Assembly (NCBI RefSeq): GCF_000622245.1
Contig: NZ_JHXW01000015.1
Location: 1 to 46,914 of the forward strand
Length of the DNA stretch: 46,914 bases
Reading direction: 5' to 3'
Origin: Fusobacterium perfoetens ATCC 29250
Lineage (GTDB): Bacteria > Fusobacteriota > Fusobacteriia > Fusobacteriales > Fusobacteriaceae
Shown piece by piece: positions 4,510-31,404 of this stretch. Within the stretch, counting starts at the first letter, position 1; each line of letters begins with the position of its first letter. The notes below the pieces were generated by a model. It searched no databases. It was given only the letters and a program-made list of their open reading frames with translations, and had not been told where the DNA came from. The position numbers and the translations under genes were made by a program.

Positions 4510-4538
4510 ACTAGAAAAAATATTTGGGAGGAATATTT

Positions 4539-5486
4539 GTGCAAGAGGGAATAGTTTTTAATATCCAAAGATTTACAATACATGATGGTCCTGGATTAAG
4601 AACAGAACTTTTTTTAAAAGGTTGTCCTTTGAGATGTGATTGGTGTAGTAATCCTGAAAGTTGGAGTATTAATATACAACCAGGAGTTTATAAGAAAAAA
4701 TGTATCTCTTATAAGAAATGTGCAGAATGTGAGACAGCTTGTCAAGAAAAAAATGTTCTTAAGTTTTATAGAGGAAAACTTATAGAAATAGATAGGGAAA
4801 AATGTTCTAATTGTATGAAATGTACTGATGCCTGTCCTTCAGAAGCTATAAAGCAATGGGGTAAAAAGATGTCAGTAGAAGAATGTATGGAAATAATTAG
4901 AAAAGATAAAGGATATTATGAACGTTCTGGTGGAGGAGTTACAGTTTCAGGTGGAGACCCTTTAGTTCAAAGTGATTTTGTATTAGAACTTTTTAAAAAA
5001 TGTAAAGAAGAAAATATTCAGACTTGTTGTGAATCAACATTTTATTCTGATTGGAAAAATATAGAAAAACTATTACCATATACAGATTTAATAATATCAG
5101 ATATAAAATTTATGGATAGAGAAAAGCATAAACAATATACAGGAGTATATAATGATTTGATTTTAGAAAATTTAAAAAAATTGTCGAAAGAAAAATCAGA
5201 AATTATATTGAGAATACCTGTAATACCAAATATAAATGATGATATGGAAAATATAAAATCAACAGCAGATTTTATTTTAAATGAAATGAACAATTCAGTT
5301 AGAACTTTACAATTATTAAGTTTTATGAGATTGGGTGAAGAAAAATATACTTCTTTAGGTATTCCTTATAAAATGGAAAATGTAAAAATAAATAGACGAA
5401 GTTTTCAAAAAAAAGTAAATGAAATAGCTAAGTATTTTAATGAACGTGGAATTCATTGTTTAGTAGGAACAAAAGAAAAAGAATAA
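4539..5486 (+). CDS. Glycyl radical enzyme activase (radical SAM)
   Basis: Cleaves S-adenosylmethionine with a [4Fe-4S] cluster to place the glycyl radical on its partner enzyme, encoded next door. The radical SAM motif CX3CX2C is at C29, C33 and C36. Two further four-cysteine groups (55, 61, 64, 68; 89, 92, 95, 99) form the ferredoxin-like insert typical of activases of dehydratase-type glycyl radical enzymes and absent from PflA. SGGDPL (GGE-type SAM-binding motif) follows. The start is GTG at 4539, seven bases after GGGAGG (4526-4531); an upstream TTG at 4524 has no such site. Length is 315 residues. It is the first gene of a three-gene set, 34 bases before the enzyme gene. Confidence 0.92.
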   Translation: MQEGIVFNIQRFTIHDGPGLRTELFLKGCPLRCDWCSNPESWSINIQPGVYKKKCISYKKCAECETACQEKNVLKFYRGKLIEIDREKCSNCMKCTDACPSEAIKQWGKKMSVEECMEIIRKDKGYYERSGGGVTVSGGDPLVQSDFVLELFKKCKEENIQTCCESTFYSDWKNIEKLLPYTDLIISDIKFMDREKHKQYTGVYNDLILENLKKLSKEKSEIILRIPVIPNINDDMENIKSTADFILNEMNNSVRTLQLLSFMRLGEEKYTSLGIPYKMENVKINRRSFQKKVNEIAKYFNERGIHCLVGTKEKE

Positions 5487-5520
5487 AATAAATTTAAGAT
5501 AAATAAAATGGAGGTAAATT

Positions 5521-8040
5521 ATGGCAGAGATTCATACAACTGCAAGTGGTGTAGAAAAATTTGATCATATTTATTGTTTAGGATATCAAGTTAATCATGA
5601 AGATTGGTCTCCTTTTAAAAGAGTAAATTATTTAAGACAAACTTTTTTAGATCGTTCTTATGATGTTGATGTAGACCGTTTAAGATTAGTTACAGAAGCA
5701 TATAAAAAACATGAAAAAGAATCTAAAAAATTACAATGTGCATATGCTTTTGAAAATATATTATTAAATACAAAATTATATATTTATCCAGAAGATTTAA
5801 TTTTAGGGGAAATAGCAGCTCCAGCTAAAGCAGCTCCTATTTATCCAGAATTTTCTGTAGATTGGATAATAGATGAAATATTACATTCTCCTTTTGAAGA
5901 ACGTGCTCATGACCAATTCTATATAAGAAATGATGAAGAAAGAAAAGAAATTGTAGAATTATGTAGATACTGGCAAGGAAAAACAGTTGAAGATATAATT
6001 AACTCAAGATTAGAAGAGGAACAAACTAAAGGGTCACAATTAGGTAAAAAAATATTTCAAACAAATGTTTATCATTATGCAGGAGTAGGACATTTAGCTA
6101 TTGATTATGGAAAATTAATGAAAGTTGGATATAATGGTTTAATTAATGAAGCTAAAGAAAAATTAAATAAATTAGATAAAAAAGACCCTTATTATGGAGA
6201 CAAAAGAGATTTTTACAATGCTTTAATAATTATGCATGAAGCTGCTAAAAAATATATATTAAGATATGCAAATCTATCTGAGGAATATGCTAGTAAAGAA
6301 GAAAATTTAGTTAGAAAACAAGAATTAGAACAAATGGCTAAAAATTGTTATGAAATAGCAGGAGAACCACCAAAAACTTTTTGGCAAGCTTTACAATTAT
6401 TTAATATAGCAACAACATTGATTCAAATTGAAGGAAATGGACATTCAATTTCTTACGGACGTATGGACCAATGGTTATATGAATTTTACGAAAAAGATAT
6501 AAATGAAAAAAGAATTACAAAAGAATTTGCTTTAGAACTTCTTGAAGTTCAATATGTAAAAATGAATAATCCAACAAAATTAAAAGATAAAGGAACAGTA
6601 GTAGTTCGTAATGGACGTGGTTTTGGAGGAGAAAGTCTTACTATAGGTGGAGTAGACCGTGATGGAAATGATGTAACAAATGATTTAACAATTTTAATGT
6701 TAGAAGCTTCTGCACATACTCGTATGATGAATCCATGGGTTTGTGTACGTATGCATGAAAATACTCCTTATGAATTAAAAGTAAAAACTGTAGAATGTAT
6801 TCGTGCTGGTTATGGACATCCAAAAATTTTTAATGATACAAGTGCAATAAAAGCCATGTTACGTAAAGGAATGACTTTAGAAGAGGCTAGAGATTATTGT
6901 GTAGTGGGATGTGTTGAACCAGATTTACCAGGAAAAGAATATGGATGGCATGATGCTGCTTATGTAAATACAGCAAAAATGATGGAAATGGTAGTAAATG
7001 GAGGTCGTTGTTTAGACTGTGGACCACATTGTATGAGATGGGCTAAATGTGGTGCTTTAGGAAAACAATTAGGACCAAACACAGGTTCATTAGAAACATA
7101 TAAATCTTTTGAAGAAGTATTAGAAAGTGTTGATAAACAATTTGCTTATTGGACTGACCAAATGTGTAGTAGTATGAATATTATAGATTTAGCTCATAGA
7201 GAGAGAAAACCATTACCATATGTATCAGCATTTTATGAGGACTGTATAGAGAGTGGTAAAGATTTAACAGAAGGAGGAGCTAAATACAATGGAATAGGGC
7301 CACAAGCTAGTGGAATAGCAACTTGTGCTGATAGTTTAGCAACTATTAAACAACTTATGTTCGATGAAAAACGTTTTACAGGAAAAGAATTATTACAAGC
7401 TATTAAAGATAACTGGGTAGGACATGAAAAATTATATGCTTTAGTAAATAGTTCAAAAGTTCATCACTATGGAAATGATGATGACTATGCTGATGATTTA
7501 TTTAAATTTATGTTTGAATGTTATTGTTGTCATATAAGAGGAAGAAAAACTACACGAGGAGGAGAATTTAGTCCTGGAGTTTATTCAGTAAATGCTAATG
7601 TTGGAATGGGATTATTTACAAATGCTTCTTTAGATGGAAGAAAAGTAGGAGAAGCAATATCAGATAATATGGGGCCTGTTCATACTGATGGAGGTTCACA
7701 TGATATAAGTGGACCTACAGCTATAGTAAACTCAGTAGCTAAGGTAGACCATAGTCTTGCAAGTAATGGAACATTATTAAATCTGAGATTCCCTCAAGAA
7801 GCAGTAGCAGGAATAGAAGGTAGAGATAACTTAATAAGTTTTATAGAAGAATATATTTCTAAAAAAGGAATGCATGTTCAATTTAATATAATGAGTTCTG
7901 CAACAATGAGAGCAGCACAAAAGAAACCAGAATTATATAAAGATATGTTAGTTCGGGTGGCTGGATACAGTGCTTACTTTGTAGAATTAGGAAAACCATT
8001 ACAAAAAGATTTAATTCAACGTACAGAATTACATTTTTAA
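5521..8040 (+). CDS. Glycyl radical enzyme, dehydratase/lyase type (PFL2 family)
   Basis: An 839-residue oxygen-sensitive glycyl radical enzyme. The radical loop RVAGYSA carries G815; the catalytic cysteine and base are in GCVEP (C464, E466). Residues aligning by spacing with B12-independent glycerol dehydratase are kept: H191 in GVGH, H308-S309 in NGHS, and D478 in GWHD, twelve residues after E466. This favours a diol dehydratase (glycerol, propane-1,2-diol or a sulfonated diol such as dihydroxypropanesulfonate) over choline lyase, which has a threonine near that aspartate. It is about 50 residues longer than glycerol dehydratase, so an isethionate-lyase-like or new substrate is not excluded. 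The next gene, an iron alcohol dehydrogenase, would reduce the aldehyde product. GGAGG at 5511 sets the start. Confidence 0.88.
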   Translation: MAEIHTTASGVEKFDHIYCLGYQVNHEDWSPFKRVNYLRQTFLDRSYDVDVDRLRLVTEAYKKHEKESKKLQCAYAFENILLNTKLYIYPEDLILGEIAAPAKAAPIYPEFSVDWIIDEILHSPFEERAHDQFYIRNDEERKEIVELCRYWQGKTVEDIINSRLEEEQTKGSQLGKKIFQTNVYHYAGVGHLAIDYGKLMKVGYNGLINEAKEKLNKLDKKDPYYGDKRDFYNALIIMHEAAKKYILRYANLSEEYASKEENLVRKQELEQMAKNCYEIAGEPPKTFWQALQLFNIATTLIQIEGNGHSISYGRMDQWLYEFYEKDINEKRITKEFALELLEVQYVKMNNPTKLKDKGTVVVRNGRGFGGESLTIGGVDRDGNDVTNDLTILMLEASAHTRMMNPWVCVRMHENTPYELKVKTVECIRAGYGHPKIFNDTSAIKAMLRKGMTLEEARDYCVVGCVEPDLPGKEYGWHDAAYVNTAKMMEMVVNGGRCLDCGPHCMRWAKCGALGKQLGPNTGSLETYKSFEEVLESVDKQFAYWTDQMCSSMNIIDLAHRERKPLPYVSAFYEDCIESGKDLTEGGAKYNGIGPQASGIATCADSLATIKQLMFDEKRFTGKELLQAIKDNWVGHEKLYALVNSSKVHHYGNDDDYADDLFKFMFECYCCHIRGRKTTRGGEFSPGVYSVNANVGMGLFTNASLDGRKVGEAISDNMGPVHTDGGSHDISGPTAIVNSVAKVDHSLASNGTLLNLRFPQEAVAGIEGRDNLISFIEEYISKKGMHVQFNIMSSATMRAAQKKPELYKDMLVRVAGYSAYFVELGKPLQKDLIQRTELHF

Positions 8041-8064
8041 TATAACTAAGGAGATGGAATATTT

Positions 8065-9213
8065 ATGAAAGATTTTGGATTTAAAATACCTCAAAATATA
8101 GAATTTGGAATTGGAAGTTTAAAAAAACTTCCTAAGATTTTAGAAGAAAGTAGATCAAAAAATGTTTTATTAATTTCAGACAGAGGACTTGAGAAATTAG
8201 GAGTAGTAGCAAAAGTATCGAATATAATAAAAGAAGCTGGAATAAAATGTACAGAATTTTTAGATGTAGTACCTAATCCAACTGTAGATGTAGTTAATGA
8301 AGCAACAGAAATATATAAAAATGTAGAAGCAACAAGTATAATAGCTTTAGGTGGAGGAAGTCCTATGGATGTAGCTAAAGCTGTAGGAGTATTAGCAAAT
8401 TTTGGTGGAAAAATTACTGATTATGAAGGAAATCATAAAGTTCCAGGAAAAGTAGTTCCAATTATAGCAATACCAACAACAGCAGGAACTGGAAGTGAAG
8501 TAACAGCTTCTGCTGTAATAACTGATGAAAGTCGTAATTATAAGTTTTCAGTATTTAGTTATGAAATTTTACCATCATATGCTGTATTAGATCCAGAATT
8601 AATAATGACAGCTCCTGCTTCAATAGCTGCTTCTTGTGGAGTAGACGCTTTAATTCATGCTATGGAGGCTTATATATCAAATAATGCTACACCTTTTTCA
8701 GATGCAATGGCTGAGAAAGCTATGGAATTAATAGGAAGAAATCTTCGTGCTTTTGTAGCTAATAGACAAAATGTAGATGCAGCATGTGCAATGATGTTAG
8801 GTTCTACATTTGCTGGAATTTCTTTTGCTTGGGCAAGATTAGGAAATGTTCATGCAATGAGTCATCCAGTAAGTGCTTATTTCCATGTACCTCATGGAGT
8901 AGCAAATTCAATATTACTTCCAACAGTATTTGAATATAATGCTTTAGCTGATAGAGGACGTTATGAAGTGATTTATAACTATATATGTGAAGGAAAAGAA
9001 AAAGTTAAAAACTTTAAACCACAAATGTTAGTTGATGAAATAAGAAAATTAAATAATGACTTAGGAATTCCTAAATCATTATCAGAAGTTGGAGTTACGG
9101 AAGATATGATACCAGCAATGGCTGAAGATGCTATGAAGAGTGGAAATATTCCAGCTAATCCTCGTCAAACTTCTCTAAAAGAAATTACTGAGTTATATAA
9201 AAAAGCTCTATAA
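8065..9213 (+). CDS. Iron-containing alcohol dehydrogenase (group III)
   Basis: An NAD(P)H-dependent aldehyde reductase of the FucO/DhaT family, 382 residues. The nucleotide-binding GGGSPMDVAK (97-106) and the phosphate/metal-proximal PTTAGTGSE (137-145) are present. Metal ligands by family spacing are D194, H198, H263 and H277. It begins 24 bases after the glycyl radical enzyme with an AAGGAG site and is followed by a terminator, so it is the last gene of the operon. Its likely job is to reduce the aldehyde made by the neighbouring enzyme (3-hydroxypropionaldehyde, propionaldehyde or a sulfo-aldehyde) and regenerate NAD+. The set lacks microcompartment shell genes, so the aldehyde is handled free in the cytosol. 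Confidence 0.9.
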   Translation: MKDFGFKIPQNIEFGIGSLKKLPKILEESRSKNVLLISDRGLEKLGVVAKVSNIIKEAGIKCTEFLDVVPNPTVDVVNEATEIYKNVEATSIIALGGGSPMDVAKAVGVLANFGGKITDYEGNHKVPGKVVPIIAIPTTAGTGSEVTASAVITDESRNYKFSVFSYEILPSYAVLDPELIMTAPASIAASCGVDALIHAMEAYISNNATPFSDAMAEKAMELIGRNLRAFVANRQNVDAACAMMLGSTFAGISFAWARLGNVHAMSHPVSAYFHVPHGVANSILLPTVFEYNALADRGRYEVIYNYICEGKEKVKNFKPQMLVDEIRKLNNDLGIPKSLSEVGVTEDMIPAMAEDAMKSGNIPANPRQTSLKEITELYKKAL

Positions 9214-10395: not shown

Positions 10396-11169
10396 CTATT
10401 TAAATTTATTATCAAGCTCTCTATCAGAAAAAGGACCAAACCCTTCACTAACAGTAGGTTTTAAATTTTTTATAAATGTTCCCATTTCATCAGCACTACC
10501 TACAATTCTATTAAATATACTTAAATATTCATTTAAAATGGGATTATTTAAATCATAAGGATATCTGATAATATGGTCTATTTCACTCCAAGCTTCTTCA
10601 AAAACAGTTCTAACTTGCATTTCAGTATAAACAATATCATCAATTTCTTCAATATAATTTTCTATTAAATAGTGAACAGAACGATAACCATGCTCTCTTA
10701 TTATTAACTCACAGTTAAGATTAGCTAAAGTTTTCTTCAATAATTCAGTATTATAATCTCCTGGTCTAACATTTACTTGAGGTGTCTCAGCAACATCCCA
10801 ATTACTTAAAATCTCTTTGTGAACTTCAATCCAATCTTCTTTAAAAAGATGAAGAACTCTGACCCCAATAAGGTCAGTAATAATTTTTTTATAGTTGTTA
10901 ACATTTATATTTTTTTCATTATATTTTTTACCCTTTCTAATTATTTTTTCTATGAGATGATATGGTTTTTTAACTCTTCTTCTAACTGAATGAACAGCTT
11001 TAGAATCTATTAATTCAAAAGTAAATTCATCAGCCTTTTTTTCTAAAAAGGGAATGATTTTAATATAATCATCATAAATTTCCTCTAAATCTTTCCATTG
11101 AAGTCCAGTAGCTAAAAAAGTTTCTTCACTAATAGAAAATTCTTTCAGAAATTTATCTTTATTAAGCAT
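10396..11169 (-). CDS. Small alarmone synthetase-like protein (RelA/SpoT synthetase domain)
   Basis: A stand-alone (p)ppGpp synthetase-type domain, 257 residues, with no HD hydrolase, TGS or ACT domain. The family motifs are present: the basic SVRRRVKKPYHLIEKI segment (61-76), DLIGVRV (99-105), GYRSVHY (161-167) and EMQVRT (183-188), which supply metal- and GTP-binding residues. The flanking sequence differs from RelQ and RelP as I know them. Its ATG overlaps the stop of the upstream SIR2-like gene by one base (TAATG), so the two are translationally coupled. A bifunctional Rel is also encoded at 24238, so this is a second alarmone source. A toxSAS-type role was considered, but no small antitoxin ORF is adjacent. 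Confidence 0.82.
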   Translation of the reverse strand: MLNKDKFLKEFSISEETFLATGLQWKDLEEIYDDYIKIIPFLEKKADEFTFELIDSKAVHSVRRRVKKPYHLIEKIIRKGKKYNEKNINVNNYKKIITDLIGVRVLHLFKEDWIEVHKEILSNWDVAETPQVNVRPGDYNTELLKKTLANLNCELIIREHGYRSVHYLIENYIEEIDDIVYTEMQVRTVFEEAWSEIDHIIRYPYDLNNPILNEYLSIFNRIVGSADEMGTFIKNLKPTVSEGFGPFSDRELDNKFK

Positions 11170-13109
11170 TAAATTTCACCTCTTAATTTTTTTAGGTAAA
11201 TAGTACAAACTTTTCTTTTACCTATAATTTTATCTTCACTAACATCTTTTTCAGAAACAGGAGATTTTAAAATAATTGTTTCTTCAATTAGATTTTTCTT
11301 ATCTAAATGATGTAAACGTTTAAAAGTAACTTTATCTTGACTATGTAAATAAGATTTATCAACCTCATAATCACACCAAGTTGAAATAGATTCTTTTTTT
11401 AATAGAAGTTCAAGGTTAAGTAAATAGAAAATATTTTCTATATCTTCTAATTTATTCATTTGTATTTTTAAATTTTCTTCTTTAGCAGTAGTAAATAATG
11501 AGTAGATAGTTTTTATTTTAACAACTTCAGAAATATTATTTAAAATAATTTTTCCAGATAAATTTTTAAAAGAAAATTCCATAGGTATTCCAGAGAATAA
11601 AGACTCTAACATTTTTAAAACTACAATAGTTCTTCCAAGAGTAGTGGAAGAAGAAATTTCATAATAGAAGTAATCACTTGTAACTTTAATTGTTTCAGGA
11701 GTATCATTTACAATACTAACTCTTAACTTAAAATCTCTACTTTTAATTTCCAAAAGAGAAATATTATTTTCTTTATTAGAAAGAACTCTTATAAAACAAT
11801 TACTAAAAAATTCTCCTATTTTCATCTCAGCATTTCCAACAATTCCAATATCATCAAAAGAAATATTTTCAGGTAAATTAGTAGAAATTATAGGAAATTT
11901 ATTAAGAGATAGTGATGAATATTTTTTCTCTAATCCTGTCTCTAAAGAAAATTCATTATTTTCTAATATTATATCTTTAGGAATATATTTTTCTTTTTCT
12001 TCTTTTGGATTCTCACTAGAAATATTATCAAATAAAGAAAATTGAATTTCTTTATTTACTTCCTCATCAGAAGTTTCAAACTCTAGAGTATTTTCTATAT
12101 TATTTTCAAATTCAGAAGTATTGTCTTTTATTTTAGTTTCGATATTTTCTTCTTTTTTTTCTTCAAAAAATAACTTATTTTTTATTTCTTCTGTGAAAGT
12201 TGGGGCTTCTACTACAGTTTTTTCAAATAAATTAGATTGAGCTTCAGGAATAATTTCTGTATTTTCTTCTTCAAGATTAATTTCAACATTATTATCTTTT
12301 GATATATTTTCAATAGTTTCTTCTTTTATTTCAGATTCTAAAGAATCATCTATATTATTAAAACAATTATAAAGTTTTTTTATAAATTTAGAAGAATCAT
12401 AATTTAGAACTTTAATATTATATTTTTTTATAAAATCTAAAACTCTAGAGTTTATAATAGGTTCATCTGTAACTAAATATATATCTTTTAGTAAGTTTGG
12501 AAAATCTCCAAATATAAATTCTAGTATTTCAAAGAAATCAGAATCTCTTAAATCAAAAGCACAGATAATATTTGTTCTTAGTTTTAAATCATAACGAATA
12601 CTATTAAAATAATTTTTATAGAAAGGAAGAACTTTTAATTTTTTTAAATCTTGACTTGTAATAATACAAGTATCAATAGAATCTAATTCGCCTAAAGGTT
12701 TATAAAGTTTTGTTTTTCCGATAGCAAAGGTATCTTTATCAAATGGAGAAAGTTTTTTTATTCTTTCATTATTATAAAGTAAATTATCATAGTTAATATT
12801 AAGAATTGATGAAATTCTATCTTCTTTTATAAGAGATTCAAGGTATTGAATATTCATATCTTTTTCAAAATAAAGAGATTGAATATTTTTAAATATATTT
12901 TGTTTTGTAGATACAACTTTATCTACAAAAATTTGAGATACCTCTAATAAAGAATTTTTTTCTATATCATCAATATTTGAAAAATTAAAAGTTTCTATAA
13001 GAAAATTAGATAATTCATTTCTACTAGGGTAAGAATCTAAATTTTTATAAAAATTTTCTGTTATTAAATTTATTTTTTTTTCTAGTTTTATATTTTCAAA
13101 AAAGTCCAT
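11169..13109 (-). CDS. Unrecognised 646-residue protein with a degenerate SIR2-like N-terminal domain
   Basis: I do not recognise this as a named family. Residues 10-250 follow the order of SIR2-like domains: INLI (13-16) and YPSRNEL (27-33) where active members have the GAGxS loop and PSW; ILNINYDNLL (102-111) like the TNYD motif; LYKPLG (135-140) like YKxHG; CIITSQDL (148-155); ICAFDLRDSDF (182-192) like the FIGYSxxD strand; and a terminal NIKVLNYD (231-238). The glycine-rich NAD loop is missing and the catalytic histidine position is leucine (L139), so it is probably not an NADase. A long acidic, low-complexity linker (about 257-400) joins a C-terminal domain of unknown fold (about 400-646). 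No signal peptide or membrane segment. It leads the operon with the alarmone synthetase and alr. The SIR2 reading is inference. Confidence 0.6.
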   Translation of the reverse strand: MDFFENIKLEKKINLITENFYKNLDSYPSRNELSNFLIETFNFSNIDDIEKNSLLEVSQIFVDKVVSTKQNIFKNIQSLYFEKDMNIQYLESLIKEDRISSILNINYDNLLYNNERIKKLSPFDKDTFAIGKTKLYKPLGELDSIDTCIITSQDLKKLKVLPFYKNYFNSIRYDLKLRTNIICAFDLRDSDFFEILEFIFGDFPNLLKDIYLVTDEPIINSRVLDFIKKYNIKVLNYDSSKFIKKLYNCFNNIDDSLESEIKEETIENISKDNNVEINLEEENTEIIPEAQSNLFEKTVVEAPTFTEEIKNKLFFEEKKEENIETKIKDNTSEFENNIENTLEFETSDEEVNKEIQFSLFDNISSENPKEEKEKYIPKDIILENNEFSLETGLEKKYSSLSLNKFPIISTNLPENISFDDIGIVGNAEMKIGEFFSNCFIRVLSNKENNISLLEIKSRDFKLRVSIVNDTPETIKVTSDYFYYEISSSTTLGRTIVVLKMLESLFSGIPMEFSFKNLSGKIILNNISEVVKIKTIYSLFTTAKEENLKIQMNKLEDIENIFYLLNLELLLKKESISTWCDYEVDKSYLHSQDKVTFKRLHHLDKKNLIEETIILKSPVSEKDVSEDKIIGKRKVCTIYLKKLRGEI

Positions 13110-13224: not shown

Positions 13225-14670
13225 ATGTTACATATACTAGGAGAATCACTTTTTTATATAAATATTATATTTGCTCTGATAGTTATTTTCTTTGAAAGAA
13301 AGAGACCTATGTATACTTTACTGTGGATAACTCTTCTTTTATTAACTTCATATTTAGGTTTTTTAGCCTATTTATTTTTTGGATTAAAATTTTATAAAAA
13401 AAGAAAAGTTACAAAATTTTATTCAAGAACTTTTTTTAAAGAGTTATATCAAACAGATGGATATAAATTAAAACTTGTAGAAAAAAGAAATCAAATGATA
13501 AATTATATAAATAATACAGTTGGAAGTAAGGTAACTTATTATAATAATGTTTTTTTTTATAAAGAAGGAAATAGTTTTTTTAAAGATATGTTAGAAGATA
13601 TAAAAAATGCTAAAGAAAGTATTAATATGGAATTTTTTATTTTTAGTGATGATGAATTTGGAAAAATTATATATGATGAATTAGAAAAAAAATCTCTTGA
13701 AGGAGTAAGTGTAAAAATTATAGTAGATGGTGTAGGAACTAGATGTCTAACAAGAGCAAGAAAAAAATCTTTAAAGAAAAATAATATAGAATTGAAAGTA
13801 TTTTTTCCATCTACTTTTCCTTTTATAAAAATTGGAAATATAAGAGCTAATTATAGAGACCATAGAAAAATATGTATAATAGATAGTCTAATATCATATA
13901 CAGGTGGATTTAATATAGGAAAAGAATATATAGGAAAGGGAAAATTAGGAAGTTGGAGAGATACTGGAGCTAGAATAGAAGGAGAGGCTTCAATAGATAT
14001 TGAAAGAGAATTTTATATAAATTGGAGTTTTTTACAAAAAAAACATTTAGATTATGCAGAAACAGATAAAATCCTTAGAAAGAAAATAAACAAAGTTCAT
14101 GAGAATTTAAAAAAATATGATGTAAATGGGGTACAATTAGTAAGTAGTGGACCGAATTATGAAACAAGAACAATTAGAGATTGTTATATTAGAATGATAA
14201 TGGAAGCTAAAAGAAGTATCTATATAGAAACTCCATATTTTGTGCCAGATGATTTTCTTTTAGATTGTTTAAGAATGGCTTTAAAATCAGGAGTAGAAGT
14301 AAAAATAATTATACCTTTTTATCCAGACCACCCATTTGTACAATGGGCTAATCAGAACTTTTCAATAGAAATGTTAAAAGAGGGAGCAGAAGTATATAAA
14401 TATAAGGAAGGATTTTTACATAGTAAACTTTTAATAATTGATAATGAAATTCTTTCTTTTGGTAGTGCAAATTTTGATTATAGAAGTCTTTATCAAAATT
14501 TTGAAATGAATTGTATAGTTTATGATATAGAATTGATAGGATATTTAAGAGAAGTATTTTTTGAAGATATTTCAAAAAGTGTAAGATTAACTAAAGATAA
14601 AATAAATAATAGAGGAAAAATAGAGAAAATAAAAGAAGCAATTTGTAGATTAATGTCCCCAATTATTTAG
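13225..14670 (+). CDS. cls: Cardiolipin synthase
   Basis: Membrane enzyme that joins two phosphatidylglycerols into cardiolipin and glycerol. It has two N-terminal membrane helices (about 5-22 and 30-55) and two phospholipase D HKD motifs: H213-x-K with RDHRKICIID, and H399-x-K with LHSKLLIID, each followed by the usual GGFN or GSANFD segment. The 481-residue length is standard. The PHP gene begins 13 bases after its stop, so they are probably co-transcribed. A paralogous PLD-family enzyme is possible, but the two-helix, two-HKD architecture is that of bacterial Cls. Confidence 0.93.
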   Translation: MLHILGESLFYINIIFALIVIFFERKRPMYTLLWITLLLLTSYLGFLAYLFFGLKFYKKRKVTKFYSRTFFKELYQTDGYKLKLVEKRNQMINYINNTVGSKVTYYNNVFFYKEGNSFFKDMLEDIKNAKESINMEFFIFSDDEFGKIIYDELEKKSLEGVSVKIIVDGVGTRCLTRARKKSLKKNNIELKVFFPSTFPFIKIGNIRANYRDHRKICIIDSLISYTGGFNIGKEYIGKGKLGSWRDTGARIEGEASIDIEREFYINWSFLQKKHLDYAETDKILRKKINKVHENLKKYDVNGVQLVSSGPNYETRTIRDCYIRMIMEAKRSIYIETPYFVPDDFLLDCLRMALKSGVEVKIIIPFYPDHPFVQWANQNFSIEMLKEGAEVYKYKEGFLHSKLLIIDNEILSFGSANFDYRSLYQNFEMNCIVYDIELIGYLREVFFEDISKSVRLTKDKINNRGKIEKIKEAICRLMSPII

Positions 14671-24237: not shown

Positions 24238-26412
24238 ATGGATTATTTGAAGGAACTTCTAGAAGAAATAGAAAAACAAAAACTTGATGTAGACATAGAA
24301 AAAATAAAACTTGCTTTTTCATTGGCTGAAGAAGCTCATATTGGGCAATTTAGACAGTCTGGAGAAAATTATATATTACACCCTGTACAAGTTGCCAAAA
24401 TAATTATTAGAATGAGAATGGATACAGATTCAATTATAGCTGGAATTTTACATGATATAGTTGAAGATACTCTTATTACTTTAGCTGATATAGAATATAG
24501 TTTTGGAAAAAGTGTGGCCAATTTAGTAGATGGTGTTACTAAATTAAAAAAATTACCTAATGGAACAAAACAACAAGATGAAAGTATCAGAAAAATGATT
24601 CTAGCTATGTCTAAAGACATAAGAGTTATTATTATAAAATTAGCTGATAGATTACATAATATGAAAACTTTAAATTTTGTGCCAGAGGAAAAACAACTTA
24701 GAGTATCTAAGGAAACTTTAGCTATATATGCTCCATTAGCTCATAGATTAGGAATGGCTAAAATAAAATCTGAATTGGAAGATTTATGTTTCTTATATAT
24801 CTATCCTGATAAATATGTAAAAGTAAGAGATTTTGTTAACTCTAAAAAAGAAGAGAGAGATGAATATATAAAAGGTGTAGAAAATACAATAAAAGAACTA
24901 TTAGATAAATCGGGGATAGAAGGAAATATAAAAGGAAGATTTAAACATTTTTATAGTATTTATAAGAAAGTTTATGAAAAAAATAGAAGTTACGAAGATT
25001 TATATGATTTGATGGGGATAAGAATTATTGTTAAAGATGTAACCACTTGTTATCATACTTTAGGAGTAATTCATGAAAAATTTAGTCCTGTTCCTGGAAG
25101 ATTTAAAGATTATATAGCAGTTCCAAAATCTAATAACTATCAATCCATTCATACAACAATAGTTGGGCCAGAAGGAAAATTCGTTGAAATACAAATAAGA
25201 ACAGAAGAAATGGATAGGATAGCAGAAGAGGGAGTTGCTGCTCACTGGAGTTATAAAGAAAAAGTAAAAGTTGGAAAAAAAGACAAAGTTTATTCATGGC
25301 TTAGGGATATAATCGAATTAAACAAAGAAGCTGATAGTGCTGAAGATTTTGTTACTTCTATAACAGGGGATATTATAGAGGAAACTATATTTACATTTTC
25401 TCCAAGAGGGGATATTTTAGAATTAAAAACAGGTTCTACTCCAATAGATTTTGCTTTTGCTATTCACTCTGAAGTTGGATGTAAATGTATAGGTGCTAAG
25501 GTAAATGGTGATATAGTACCACTTGATTATAAATTAAAAAGTGGTGATAGAGTAGAAATAATCACATCTAAAAATGCTAAAGGTCCTGGAAATGACTGGC
25601 TTGATATAGTTGTTACACAAGGAGCTAAAAGTAAGATTAGAAAATGGTTAAAAGATAAAAAATGGGAAGAAAATATAAAATTAGGTAAGGATGTTTTAGA
25701 AAAAGAAGGGGCTAAATTACCTGTTCCTATGACTTTAAAAGAGATAGAGGAATCTCCTGTAACTAAAAAACATATGGAAAAACATAATATAGCAACATTA
25801 GATGATTTTTATTTTATTATGGGAGAAAAAAGAAGTAAGGCAGAAATTTTTGTTGATAAGTTAAAAGATTATATAGAAAATATAAAAGAGAAAGAAATAT
25901 TAACAAAAAATGTAGTTCCTACTCAAATTAAAAATTCTAGAAAGAAAAATGATTATGGAATTATAATAGAGGGAATAGAAAATACTCTTATAAGATTTGC
26001 AAAATGTTGTACTCCTTTACCAGGTGATGAAATAGGAGGATATATAACAAAACTTACAGGAATAGCTATTCATAGGAAAGATTGTAAAAATTTCCAAAAT
26101 ATGATAGAACTTGAGCCAGAAAGACAAATAAATGTTAAATGGGATACAGATGTCATTGATAAGAAAATGAATAAATATCAATTTAAATTTTCAATAATAG
26201 CTGAAGATAATAAAAGTCTTGTAATGGAAGTTGTAAATTTAATAGGAAATCATAAAATAGTTCTTACAGATATAAACTCTATGAATATTTCTAAAAATAG
26301 TAAAAAATATTTAAAAATAAAAGTTGCTGTAGAAATTTCTAATAAAAAAGATTACAGTATGCTTATTGAAAATATTAAGAAAATTAAATATGTAATAGAG
26401 GTTGAAAGATAG
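24238..26412 (+). CDS. rel: Bifunctional (p)ppGpp synthetase/hydrolase
   Basis: The long Rel enzyme, which makes and degrades (p)ppGpp. Domain order is complete in 724 residues: HD hydrolase with H48 and HDIVED (72-77); synthetase with YDLMGIRI and YQSIHTT; TGS domain starting near TFSPRGDI; zinc-finger-like region with FAKCCTPLPGD; and C-terminal ACT from about residue 648. The synthetase has RFKD at 288-291, the RXKD form found in bifunctional Rel rather than the EXDD of synthetase-only RelA, so hydrolase activity is expected. A second, stand-alone synthetase lies at 10396. Confidence 0.96.
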   Translation: MDYLKELLEEIEKQKLDVDIEKIKLAFSLAEEAHIGQFRQSGENYILHPVQVAKIIIRMRMDTDSIIAGILHDIVEDTLITLADIEYSFGKSVANLVDGVTKLKKLPNGTKQQDESIRKMILAMSKDIRVIIIKLADRLHNMKTLNFVPEEKQLRVSKETLAIYAPLAHRLGMAKIKSELEDLCFLYIYPDKYVKVRDFVNSKKEERDEYIKGVENTIKELLDKSGIEGNIKGRFKHFYSIYKKVYEKNRSYEDLYDLMGIRIIVKDVTTCYHTLGVIHEKFSPVPGRFKDYIAVPKSNNYQSIHTTIVGPEGKFVEIQIRTEEMDRIAEEGVAAHWSYKEKVKVGKKDKVYSWLRDIIELNKEADSAEDFVTSITGDIIEETIFTFSPRGDILELKTGSTPIDFAFAIHSEVGCKCIGAKVNGDIVPLDYKLKSGDRVEIITSKNAKGPGNDWLDIVVTQGAKSKIRKWLKDKKWEENIKLGKDVLEKEGAKLPVPMTLKEIEESPVTKKHMEKHNIATLDDFYFIMGEKRSKAEIFVDKLKDYIENIKEKEILTKNVVPTQIKNSRKKNDYGIIIEGIENTLIRFAKCCTPLPGDEIGGYITKLTGIAIHRKDCKNFQNMIELEPERQINVKWDTDVIDKKMNKYQFKFSIIAEDNKSLVMEVVNLIGNHKIVLTDINSMNISKNSKKYLKIKVAVEISNKKDYSMLIENIKKIKYVIEVER

Positions 26413-28880: not shown

Positions 28881-28910
28881 AAAAACGGCAATAAAGCCGT
28901 TTTTTATTTT
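28881..28910. terminator. Bidirectional terminator between YibE/F and the fusion gene
   Basis: AAAAACGGC (28881-28889), six-base loop, GCCGTTTTT (28896-28904), with A run and T run on either side. It ends the minus-strand fusion gene and serves the plus strand too. The 130 bases between 28747 and here are AT-rich with nothing recognised. Confidence 0.9.
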
Positions 28911-31263
28911 AATAAATAGGGTTAATCATATATTCTGTAATATCTCTTACAATAGCTGCAGTTTTTAAACTCTTATCATAAACTGGGTTATACTCAACAA
29001 TATCAACAGAAGTTATAAAGTAATTTTTGAATAGATATTTAAATGTTTTGAAAATATCATCTTCATCAAATCCATTTTTTACAGGAGTACTTACTCCAGG
29101 AGCAAATTTAGGATTTAAAGAGTCTACGTCAAAACTTATATGAATATCAGAAACCTTTAAATAATCTCCAATTTCGTCAAGTACAGCATCTATTCCTTTA
29201 CGCATAACATCATCATAAGGAATAACTTTTACTCCAAGTTTTTCAATAACATCATATTCTCTAACATCAATATCTCTAGCACCTAAAATAATAACATTTT
29301 CAGGTTTTATTTTAGCTCCTTCAAAGTAACAGTTAACCATATCAGTATCTCCCTCACCTTGTAAGAAAGCTAAAGGCATTCCATGAATATTTCCACTGAT
29401 AGTAGTCTCTTCTGTATTCATATCAGCATGAGCATCTATCCAAACAACTCCAAGATTAGGGTTAGATTTAGCAACTCCAGATATAGTTCCTAAAGCAATT
29501 GAATGGTCTCCTCCAATTGTTATTGGTCTATATCCATCTTCTATAGATTCATCTACAAGTTTTGCTATTTTTTCACAAGTATTTAATATAGTATTTTTAT
29601 ATTTCATCATAGGAACATTGAAATCTTCTCTTTGTTTTTCAATATCAACCATTTCAATTTCATCAAATGTATCAGAGAAGTTTTCTACAAGAACATCTAT
29701 ACCAAATTCAATACCAGACCTATCAGCTCCTAAATTTAAAGGAACTCCAAATATTCTGTTTTTCATTTTCTCTGTATATAAATACATAGCATCTTCATCT
29801 TCAATGATATTTATATATTCAAGATTAGGGTCTTCCATACCTTGTAAATGTGTTTTTTGTTCACGAAGTTCTTCTATATAATTGATAACTTCTTTACTAA
29901 TTCTTTCTCCAGGAATGATAATAGGGATACCAGGTGGATATGCCATTATCATTTCAGCACAAATTTTTCCTAAACTTTCAGAGAAAGGAACTTTTGAAGT
30001 TTCACTATAAAAAGCTTCCCTTGGGATAAGTTCTTGTTCAGGAATAGCAGGTATTCTTGAATTTCTTATTTTTTTAATTTCTTTTGTATTGAAATATCTA
30101 TCACTGATATCTTGTAAAGCTTTTATTAAAGTATCAACACTTTCTTTTGTATCTCCAATTGTAATAAGTCCTAAAACATTATAGAAATCAGAAAGTTCAA
30201 CTTGAATATTATATTCATCTGTTAATATAGTTTCTAAGTCAAATCCAGTTATTCCTAAAGCTTTTGCAGATACAGTTAATTTAGTAGGGTCAAAGGCAAA
30301 TATTCCCTCTTTTCCAACTATCTCTTCTCCAAAAGAATACATTCCAGGAATTTTATTTATTTCAGCTCTAGCATAGTTAGCTAGTTCAATAGTTCTAGAT
30401 AAAAGTTCTCTTCCATGAATAGCTATTTGTCTTCTAGCACAGTCTAAAGAAGCCATTAATGGATAAGATGGTGATGTTGTATGAAGTAAACTTAAAATTT
30501 GTTGAACTCTTGTAGGGTCAACTCTATCAGAATTAACATGTAATAAAGACATTTGAGTCATTGCTCCAAGAATTTTATGAGTGCTTTGACAACAAATATC
30601 AGCTCCAGCATCAACAGCTGACATTGGTAAATCTTCATGGAAATGAAGATGAGGACCATGAGCTTCATCAACTATTAAAGGAATATCATGTCTGTGTACA
30701 ATAGCAGCTATTTTTTGAATATCAGTAGCTACACCATAGTAAGTAGGGTTAATAATAAGTACAGCTTTTGCATCAGGATGTAATTCTAACATTTTTTCAA
30801 CAGTACTAGGTCTAACTCCATGAGCTATTCCTAAATCATTGTCTATAACAGGATTCATGTATACAGGTATTGCTCCAGCTAAAATAATTCCAGCAGAAAC
30901 TGATTTATGAACATTTCTAGGAATTAATATCTTTTCTCCAGCTTTTACAACTGAAAGAATCATGGCCTGAATAGCACCAGATGTTCCATTTACAGCAAAG
31001 AAACTCTTTTTAACTCCATAGGCATCAGCAGCTAATTCTTGAGCTTCTTTAATACAACTTTTAGGATGGTGTAAACCATCAACCATTTTAAAAATAGTTA
31101 CATCAATTTTTAAAGGATTTTCTCCAATAAAATTTAAAAATTCTTCATCCATTCCTTTACCTTGTTTGTGTCCAGGTACATGGAAAGGTGTGATATTTCT
31201 TTTAGCATATACATCTTTCAGTACAGTAAATAATGGTGTCAAATTTTGGTCTAATTTAGCCAT
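28909..31263 (-). CDS. Fused Orn/Lys/Arg decarboxylase - arginase
   Basis: Two complete enzymes in one 784-residue chain. Residues 1-480 are a fold-III PLP basic amino-acid decarboxylase of the Bacillus SpeA type: PFHVPGHKQG (26-35), DEAHGPH (199-205), PLP lysine K230 in STHKILGA. Residues 500-784 are an arginase-family domain: GVPLNLGADRSG (506-517), GGDHS (H587), DAHAD (D610, H612, D614), GNIHGMPLAFL and FDVDSLNP (D712, D714). The NIHGMP loop favours arginase over agmatinase. The pair would turn arginine into ornithine and putrescine, or via agmatine if the second domain is an agmatinase. GGAGG (31278-31282) is 14 bases before the ATG at 31263; an in-frame ATG at 31284 lacks a site upstream. 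Single-gene unit. Confidence 0.9.
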   Translation of the reverse strand: MAKLDQNLTPLFTVLKDVYAKRNITPFHVPGHKQGKGMDEEFLNFIGENPLKIDVTIFKMVDGLHHPKSCIKEAQELAADAYGVKKSFFAVNGTSGAIQAMILSVVKAGEKILIPRNVHKSVSAGIILAGAIPVYMNPVIDNDLGIAHGVRPSTVEKMLELHPDAKAVLIINPTYYGVATDIQKIAAIVHRHDIPLIVDEAHGPHLHFHEDLPMSAVDAGADICCQSTHKILGAMTQMSLLHVNSDRVDPTRVQQILSLLHTTSPSYPLMASLDCARRQIAIHGRELLSRTIELANYARAEINKIPGMYSFGEEIVGKEGIFAFDPTKLTVSAKALGITGFDLETILTDEYNIQVELSDFYNVLGLITIGDTKESVDTLIKALQDISDRYFNTKEIKKIRNSRIPAIPEQELIPREAFYSETSKVPFSESLGKICAEMIMAYPPGIPIIIPGERISKEVINYIEELREQKTHLQGMEDPNLEYINIIEDEDAMYLYTEKMKNRIFGVPLNLGADRSGIEFGIDVLVENFSDTFDEIEMVDIEKQREDFNVPMMKYKNTILNTCEKIAKLVDESIEDGYRPITIGGDHSIALGTISGVAKSNPNLGVVWIDAHADMNTEETTISGNIHGMPLAFLQGEGDTDMVNCYFEGAKIKPENVIILGARDIDVREYDVIEKLGVKVIPYDDVMRKGIDAVLDEIGDYLKVSDIHISFDVDSLNPKFAPGVSTPVKNGFDEDDIFKTFKYLFKNYFITSVDIVEYNPVYDKSLKTAAIVRDITEYMINPIY

Positions 31264-31404
31264 TCTTTTCTTTCTTACCTCCATATTTTAATTTTTTTAT
31301 TTTTATGTTATAATTTTATTACATTACGATATTTTATGTTTTTTTTAAAATTTAGTCAATCTTTTTTTTATTTTTTTTTAAATTTGTTTCAAAGGAGTAT
31401 AATC

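Follow-up and report, generated by a model that had tools for sequence, protein, structure and literature searches.

A SIR2-like domain that has lost its catalytic residues, paired with an undescribed C-terminal domain, is core in Fusobacteriaceae

The window (the whole stretch of DNA that was analysed, 46,914 nucleotides of contig NZ_JHXW01000015.1 from Fusobacterium perfoetens ATCC 29250, with a G+C content of 25.5%) contains an open reading frame for a 646-aa protein in which we distinguish a SIR2-like domain (N domain), an acidic linker and a C-terminal domain (C domain). The ORF lies between a gene for a small alarmone synthetase and a divergent gene for a cardiolipin synthase. The relevant features are:

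11169-13109, minus strand: whole ORF, 646 aa, with SIR2-like domain, acidic linker and C-terminal domain (ORF list)
12345-13109, minus strand: SIR2_2/ThsA-type domain, residues 1-255, catalytic residues lost (profiles, structure model, dN/dS 0.15)
13044-13058, minus strand: E18-K22 (ENFYK), counterpart of the GAGLS of ThsA (profile alignment)
12792-12794, minus strand: N106, position of the catalytic Asn, retained (profile columns)
12693-12695, minus strand: L139, position of the catalytic His (profile columns; His in 10 of 10 controls)
12000-12344, minus strand: acidic, weakly conserved linker, residues 256-370 (charge -22; pLDDT; dN/dS 0.68)
11172-11999, minus strand: C-terminal alpha/beta domain, residues 371-646, which most relatives have as a separate protein (AlphaFold2 model)
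10396-11169, minus strand: small alarmone synthetase, 257 aa (PF04607, E 6.6e-19; PDB 6ewz, E 2.4e-11; one-base overlap with the stop of the ORF)
13225-14670, plus strand: cardiolipin synthase (cls), a divergent neighbour conserved near the N-C pair (TIGR04265, 404.9 bits)

A good ribosome binding site (AAGAGG, 13121-13116) precedes the 646-aa ORF. The promoter scan placed a TTGAGA-17-TATACT site just upstream too, to which we give no weight since the scan returned 40 sites against 35.6 expected. At the other end, the final base of the stop codon TAA (11171-11169) is also the first base of the synthetase ATG (TAATG), and a second AAGAGG is found at 11184-11179. Between the ends of the two domain profiles the linker measures 104 aa, with a net charge of -22 and 30% D+E, and the block means of pLDDT stay below 40 across residues 261-370 of the AlphaFold2 model. 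The acidic linker of the initial annotation is hence real.

We established the identity of the N-terminal domain from profiles and from predicted structure. SIR2_2 (PF13289) matches residues 101-235 with 34.5 bits (gathering cut-off: 24.5; E 2.6e-8), and matches all 31 aligned relatives as well. When the profile of the family (31 relatives) was searched against the PDB, the top match was ThsA 6lhx (E 5.6e-13), and below it came more ThsA proteins and SIR2 proteins of the KomC type (~1e-7). The full-length AlphaFold2 model was built from a seven-row alignment and has a mean pLDDT of 66.5, with much of the first 100 residues under 60; its residues 1-253 align with SeThsA 7uxt (Z 17.6, rmsd 3.3, 239 residues aligned), with BcThsA (Z 17.3) and with FAM118B (Z 13.0). 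With this model, Foldseek hits (E 4e-7 to 1.3e-6) comprised DSR2, KomC and ThsA. The SIR2-like order of motifs previously read over residues 10-250 is thus borne out by both approaches: SIR2 families are detected by profile, and the predicted fold is a ThsA-like Rossmann/SIR2 fold. By these profile and model comparisons, membership of the SIR2_2/ThsA-type fold family is confirmed for the N domain.

Of the 51 genomes that have an N match, 46 were then used to count residues at the catalytic columns; the controls were ThsA and nine SIR2 proteins from the phylum. The motifs K-x-H-G and N-Y/F-D are present in the ten controls, all from outside the family. Within the family, the catalytic His and the GAG loop are absent from each of the 46 homologues. 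The His column holds Leu (24), Phe (10), Met (6), Asn (3) or Tyr (3); the catalytic Asn column holds Asn in 29 of 46 and Asp in 13; and the column of the ThsA GAGLS reads mostly GDFLx, combining Asp or Glu with a bulky residue. In the window ORF, N106 stands at the position of ThsA N112, whereas L139 replaces the catalytic His (ThsA H152), as seen both in the profile column and in the pairing with the ThsA His. The initial annotation was therefore correct on the His-to-Leu change and on the retained Asn of INYD. It was right, too, about the loss of the GAGxS loop, but not about the exact residues: it read the loop as TENFY (17-21), one position off from E18-N19-F20-Y21-K22 as paired by the profile. 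The clade of the window itself (G000, G031, G032 and G035) is the most diverged, having also lost the first loop glycine and the GxDL glycine. As read from these residues, a catalytically dead window protein is well supported. Asn retained in 29 rows could allow for some unusual residual activity, while ordinary NAD binding is unlikely where the former pyrophosphate loop carries an acidic residue (Asp or Glu) together with a bulky one. Judged by its residues, this is a family with a SIR2_2 fold that is not among the NAD hydrolases.

Loss of catalytic residues could reflect a decaying pseudogene, an explanation that is ruled out by the dN/dS of the N domain: 0.15 and 0.11 in the two species pairs for which it was computed. 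For the C domain the values are 0.17 and 0.17, for the linker 0.68 and 0.56, and for the neighbouring genes 0.04 and 0.09 (synthetase), 0.07 and 0.11 (cls), and 0.23 and 0.27 (alr). The N domain has also acquired a new set of invariant residues (D63, Q153 and L161 in 46/46, Y164 in 44/46 and S53 in 43/46), at positions where most controls differ. Low dN/dS together with this new set indicates that the domain has been re-purposed and is not decaying; the conservation of the new invariant residues is typical of a domain that has taken on another role. With the chemistry gone family-wide and selection on the domain still strong, a second use of the fold is what the data point to.

The C domain, folded alone, gives an AlphaFold2 model with a pLDDT of 87.5 from five sequences. 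Its profile found no match among PDB chains, ThsA included, which leaves a distant fold relation possible; PHROG gave no match, and the search of 20 rows against Pfam gave no consistent family. DUF7424 was hit by 1 of the 20 rows (E 8.8e-4, below the family cut-off), and the other Pfam families were unrelated to one another and matched by single rows or pairs; we took all of these as chance. Foldseek searches of the model against the PDB and BFVD returned nothing at E <= 0.001, and a lipocalin-type barrel (VIA, best Z 4.0, 86 aligned, rmsd 4.1) was too weak to use. The new C-terminal domain announced by the initial annotation stands up in the Pfam, PDB-profile and PHROG searches, and we regard it as a previously undescribed family with a confident predicted model, bearing in mind that an absent match does not prove a new fold.

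Fusobacteriaceae are a family of gut and mouth bacteria. Both domains are widespread in it, with N in 51 of 61 genomes and C likewise in 51 of 61. The C-domain search covered 389 genomes and its 51 matches are all from Fusobacteriaceae (0 of 328 others). When the N domain was searched in 98 genomes of the phylum, strong matches (E <= 2.2e-45) were confined to Fusobacteriaceae, and weak ones (E >= 2.0e-13), which are other SIR2 proteins, occurred in 8 of the 37 genomes from outside the family. None of 66 pattern matches in viral contigs is a relative. A scan of genome contigs gave at least four loci (Fusobacterium sp., Cetobacterium sp. 2A, F. mortiferum and an uncultured Cetobacterium), whose names point to Fusobacteriaceae. 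The N-C pair is core in Fusobacteriaceae. It sits at a conserved locus, and its neighbours (cls, alr, lon, synthetase) are of housekeeping types.

A gene that is single, nearly universal and stably placed does not resemble a defence gene, and a role in anti-phage defence, hinted at in the initial annotation, is not supported in view of this core distribution and of the family-wide loss of catalytic residues. The PADLOC models gave no match to the window protein, although 17 of 31 relatives match a ThsA model. The TIR domain that a Thoeris partner would have was not found when the ORF and five neighbouring proteins were scanned. A further SIR2_2 match is lacking in 39 of the 51 N carriers, the window genome included, and present in 12. 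One such second protein, encoded by a 282-aa frame in the window's genus (L108, genome G033), looks active (GAGIS, TNYD, KFHGD); its patchy distribution makes it probably a defence gene.

The fusion of N and C seen in the window is not the basic state, as the halves are separate genes in most relatives. Among 43 genomes labelled as fused or split (of 46; G012, G017 and G046 carry no label because of contig ends), 30 carry N and C as two genes side by side and 13 as a single gene. Mapped on the N-domain tree, a quick tree with long branches, this state switches 5 times, and starred branches force at least 3 of the switches. N and C are adjacent in 46 of the 48 genomes where both reach the E-value limit, the other two having them at contig ends; and in G052, missed by the whole-genome search, searching the frame directly showed that the gene adjoining N also fits the C profile. 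In the 13 fused genomes the tether spans 85-583 aa with a net charge of -17 to -88, with the exception of G002, which has no tether. The fused proteins of genus g12 (L047, L048 and L049) are 941-1143 aa long, of which 390-583 aa make up the acidic middle (net -79 to -88). Of the 30 split genomes, 25 likewise have an acidic stretch ahead of the C domain, in a frame with a provisional start codon. Repeated fusion of neighbours is good evidence that N and C are physically associated, and from these gene arrangements it is strongly indicated that they form one functional unit, made either of two proteins or of one tethered chain.

Other neighbours are less constant. The product of the gene behind the ORF has PF04607 (RelA_SpoT) over residues 64-206 of 257 and no other Pfam family reaching its cut-off; it is, by its RelA_SpoT domain without HD, TGS or ACT, a small alarmone synthetase. 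RelA_SpoT matches in the whole genome amount to two, both in the window: this synthetase and a long Rel (HD, RelA_SpoT, TGS, ACT) at 24238-26412 on the plus strand. Where a genome has both C and the synthetase, the latter follows C on the same strand within 1 kb in 37 of 46 cases. Yet the three genomes of genus g12 have the pair and lack the synthetase, in g8, g13, g14 and G046 the synthetase is away from the pair, and in five genomes it occurs without the pair. The translational coupling proposed at the outset hence holds in the window, where the genes overlap, but not as a fixed partnership, and the function of the pair cannot consist solely in controlling the synthetase.

The deeper-branching genera have a gene of Lon size (792-793 aa) immediately upstream of the SIR2-like gene and in the same orientation (L050, L065, L052 and L058); Pfam confirmed it as Lon in the three neighbours tested (L050, L052 and L058). 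By lineage, lon is upstream of N in g8, g13 and G046. An orthologue of cls is found in 27 of 38 fetched loci, and a gene for formate-tetrahydrofolate ligase follows in 2 of the 3 loci of g12. Neighbours thus vary among lineages, and N has no constant partner but C.

Most SIR2_2 proteins are NADases of defence systems, KomC and DSR2 (also so named in PDB titles) among them, and in Thoeris the NAD hydrolase ThsA has a C-terminal SLOG-type sensor and a TIR partner gene. The window protein resembles ThsA in its fold over residues 1-253, its top profile match and its motif order, but its family lacks the catalytic His and GAG, the ORF and its five scanned neighbours show no sign of a Thoeris system, and the C-terminal part is another domain, without a PDB profile match. 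KomC and DSR2 share the SIR2_2-type domain (Foldseek E 4e-7 to 8e-7), and KomC (264 aa) consists of a SIR2 part alone, an arrangement it has in common with the split N protein; the present family differs in being without the His and core in Fusobacteriaceae. A search of open-licence papers found no description of the dead SIR2-like/C-domain family. Another comparison is with FAM118A/B, human noncanonical sirtuins of the SIR2_2 type without a zinc module, which were co-opted for a cellular role and work as partners; they form filaments and process NAD, whereas the present family has lost the catalytic residues (PMC12700824). As for the synthetase, the fpRel listed next to Rel for Fusobacteria is a candidate counterpart of window 10396-11169, being RelA_SpoT-only in a genome that also has a long Rel, with the difference that the available passages on fpRel mention no SIR2-like neighbour (PMC3153485).

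We lean towards a domesticated pseudo-NADase whose role would be that of a scaffold or sensor within a housekeeping stress regulator of two parts. A ThsA-type SIR2 NADase would have entered the core genome of an ancestor of Fusobacteriaceae and lost its chemistry, the pyrophosphate-binding GAG loop turning mostly into GDF and the catalytic His into a hydrophobic residue or Asn/Tyr, as new residues became invariant. The SIR2-like part would now serve as a scaffold or ligand-sensing module instead of an NAD hydrolase, the C domain as the reader or output part, and the flexible acidic tether or tail would let both meet yet stay mobile. In translationally coupled lineages this putative stress regulator would probably determine how abundant or how active the small alarmone synthetase is; other lineages have it downstream of lon. 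A more specific version, in which the SIR2_2 defence fold was domesticated once in the ancestor as a two-part nucleotide-stress sensor with an alarmone- or Lon-linked output depending on the genus, is one we put forward tentatively, as conceivable but doubtful. Either way, a pseudo-NADase regulator would represent a second bacterial use of a fold usually studied as an NAD-destroying suicide effector, comparable to that of TIR folds in animals; it is core in Fusobacterium and relatives, and nature offers both split and fused versions of it.

The gene order N-C-synthetase, the TAATG overlap and the linkage in 37 of 46 genomes would also fit a dedicated partner of the synthetase, an inhibitor or activator whose old NAD-pocket residues bind (p)ppGpp or the enzyme itself. 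We consider this unlikely, because of the g12 pairs that lack a synthetase, the unlinked genes of g8, g13 and g14, and the synthetases that stand alone in five genomes. The true partner might instead be another neighbour, Lon protease (upstream of N; 3 of 3 by Pfam) or cardiolipin synthase (divergent or downstream; 27 of 38 loci); but Lon is absent beside the pair in the fetched loci of other lineages and cls lies mostly on the opposite strand, making this less probable still.

We give little credence to two further explanations. A protein that is still an active enzyme or a defence effector, despite its unorthodox residues, would account for the Asn in 29 of 46 rows and the PADLOC ThsA matches of 17 of 31, and would agree with the habit of most SIR2_2 proteins; it is highly improbable in a core gene at a conserved place whose His and GAG are missing throughout, and with a window protein that PADLOC does not recognize. 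Equally hard to sustain is a dominant-negative role, in which the protein would join assemblies of active SIR2 NADases in its own cell and act as a brake on them: the PDB lists ThsA, KomBC and FAM118B as helices or filaments, which an inactive subunit could poison, and 12 of the 51 carriers do have another SIR2_2 protein, yet the remaining 39, among them the window genome, have no other SIR2_2 match.

Elsewhere in the window, the minus strand at 28909-31284 encodes a 791-aa protein with an Orn/Lys/Arg decarboxylase domain (16-484) and an arginase/agmatinase-family domain (511-785), a fusion that suggests conversion of arginine or agmatine to polyamine in one chain. On the plus strand, 4524-9213 holds in a row a radical SAM activase, a PFL-like glycyl radical enzyme and an iron alcohol dehydrogenase, with a LuxR-type regulator just before them.
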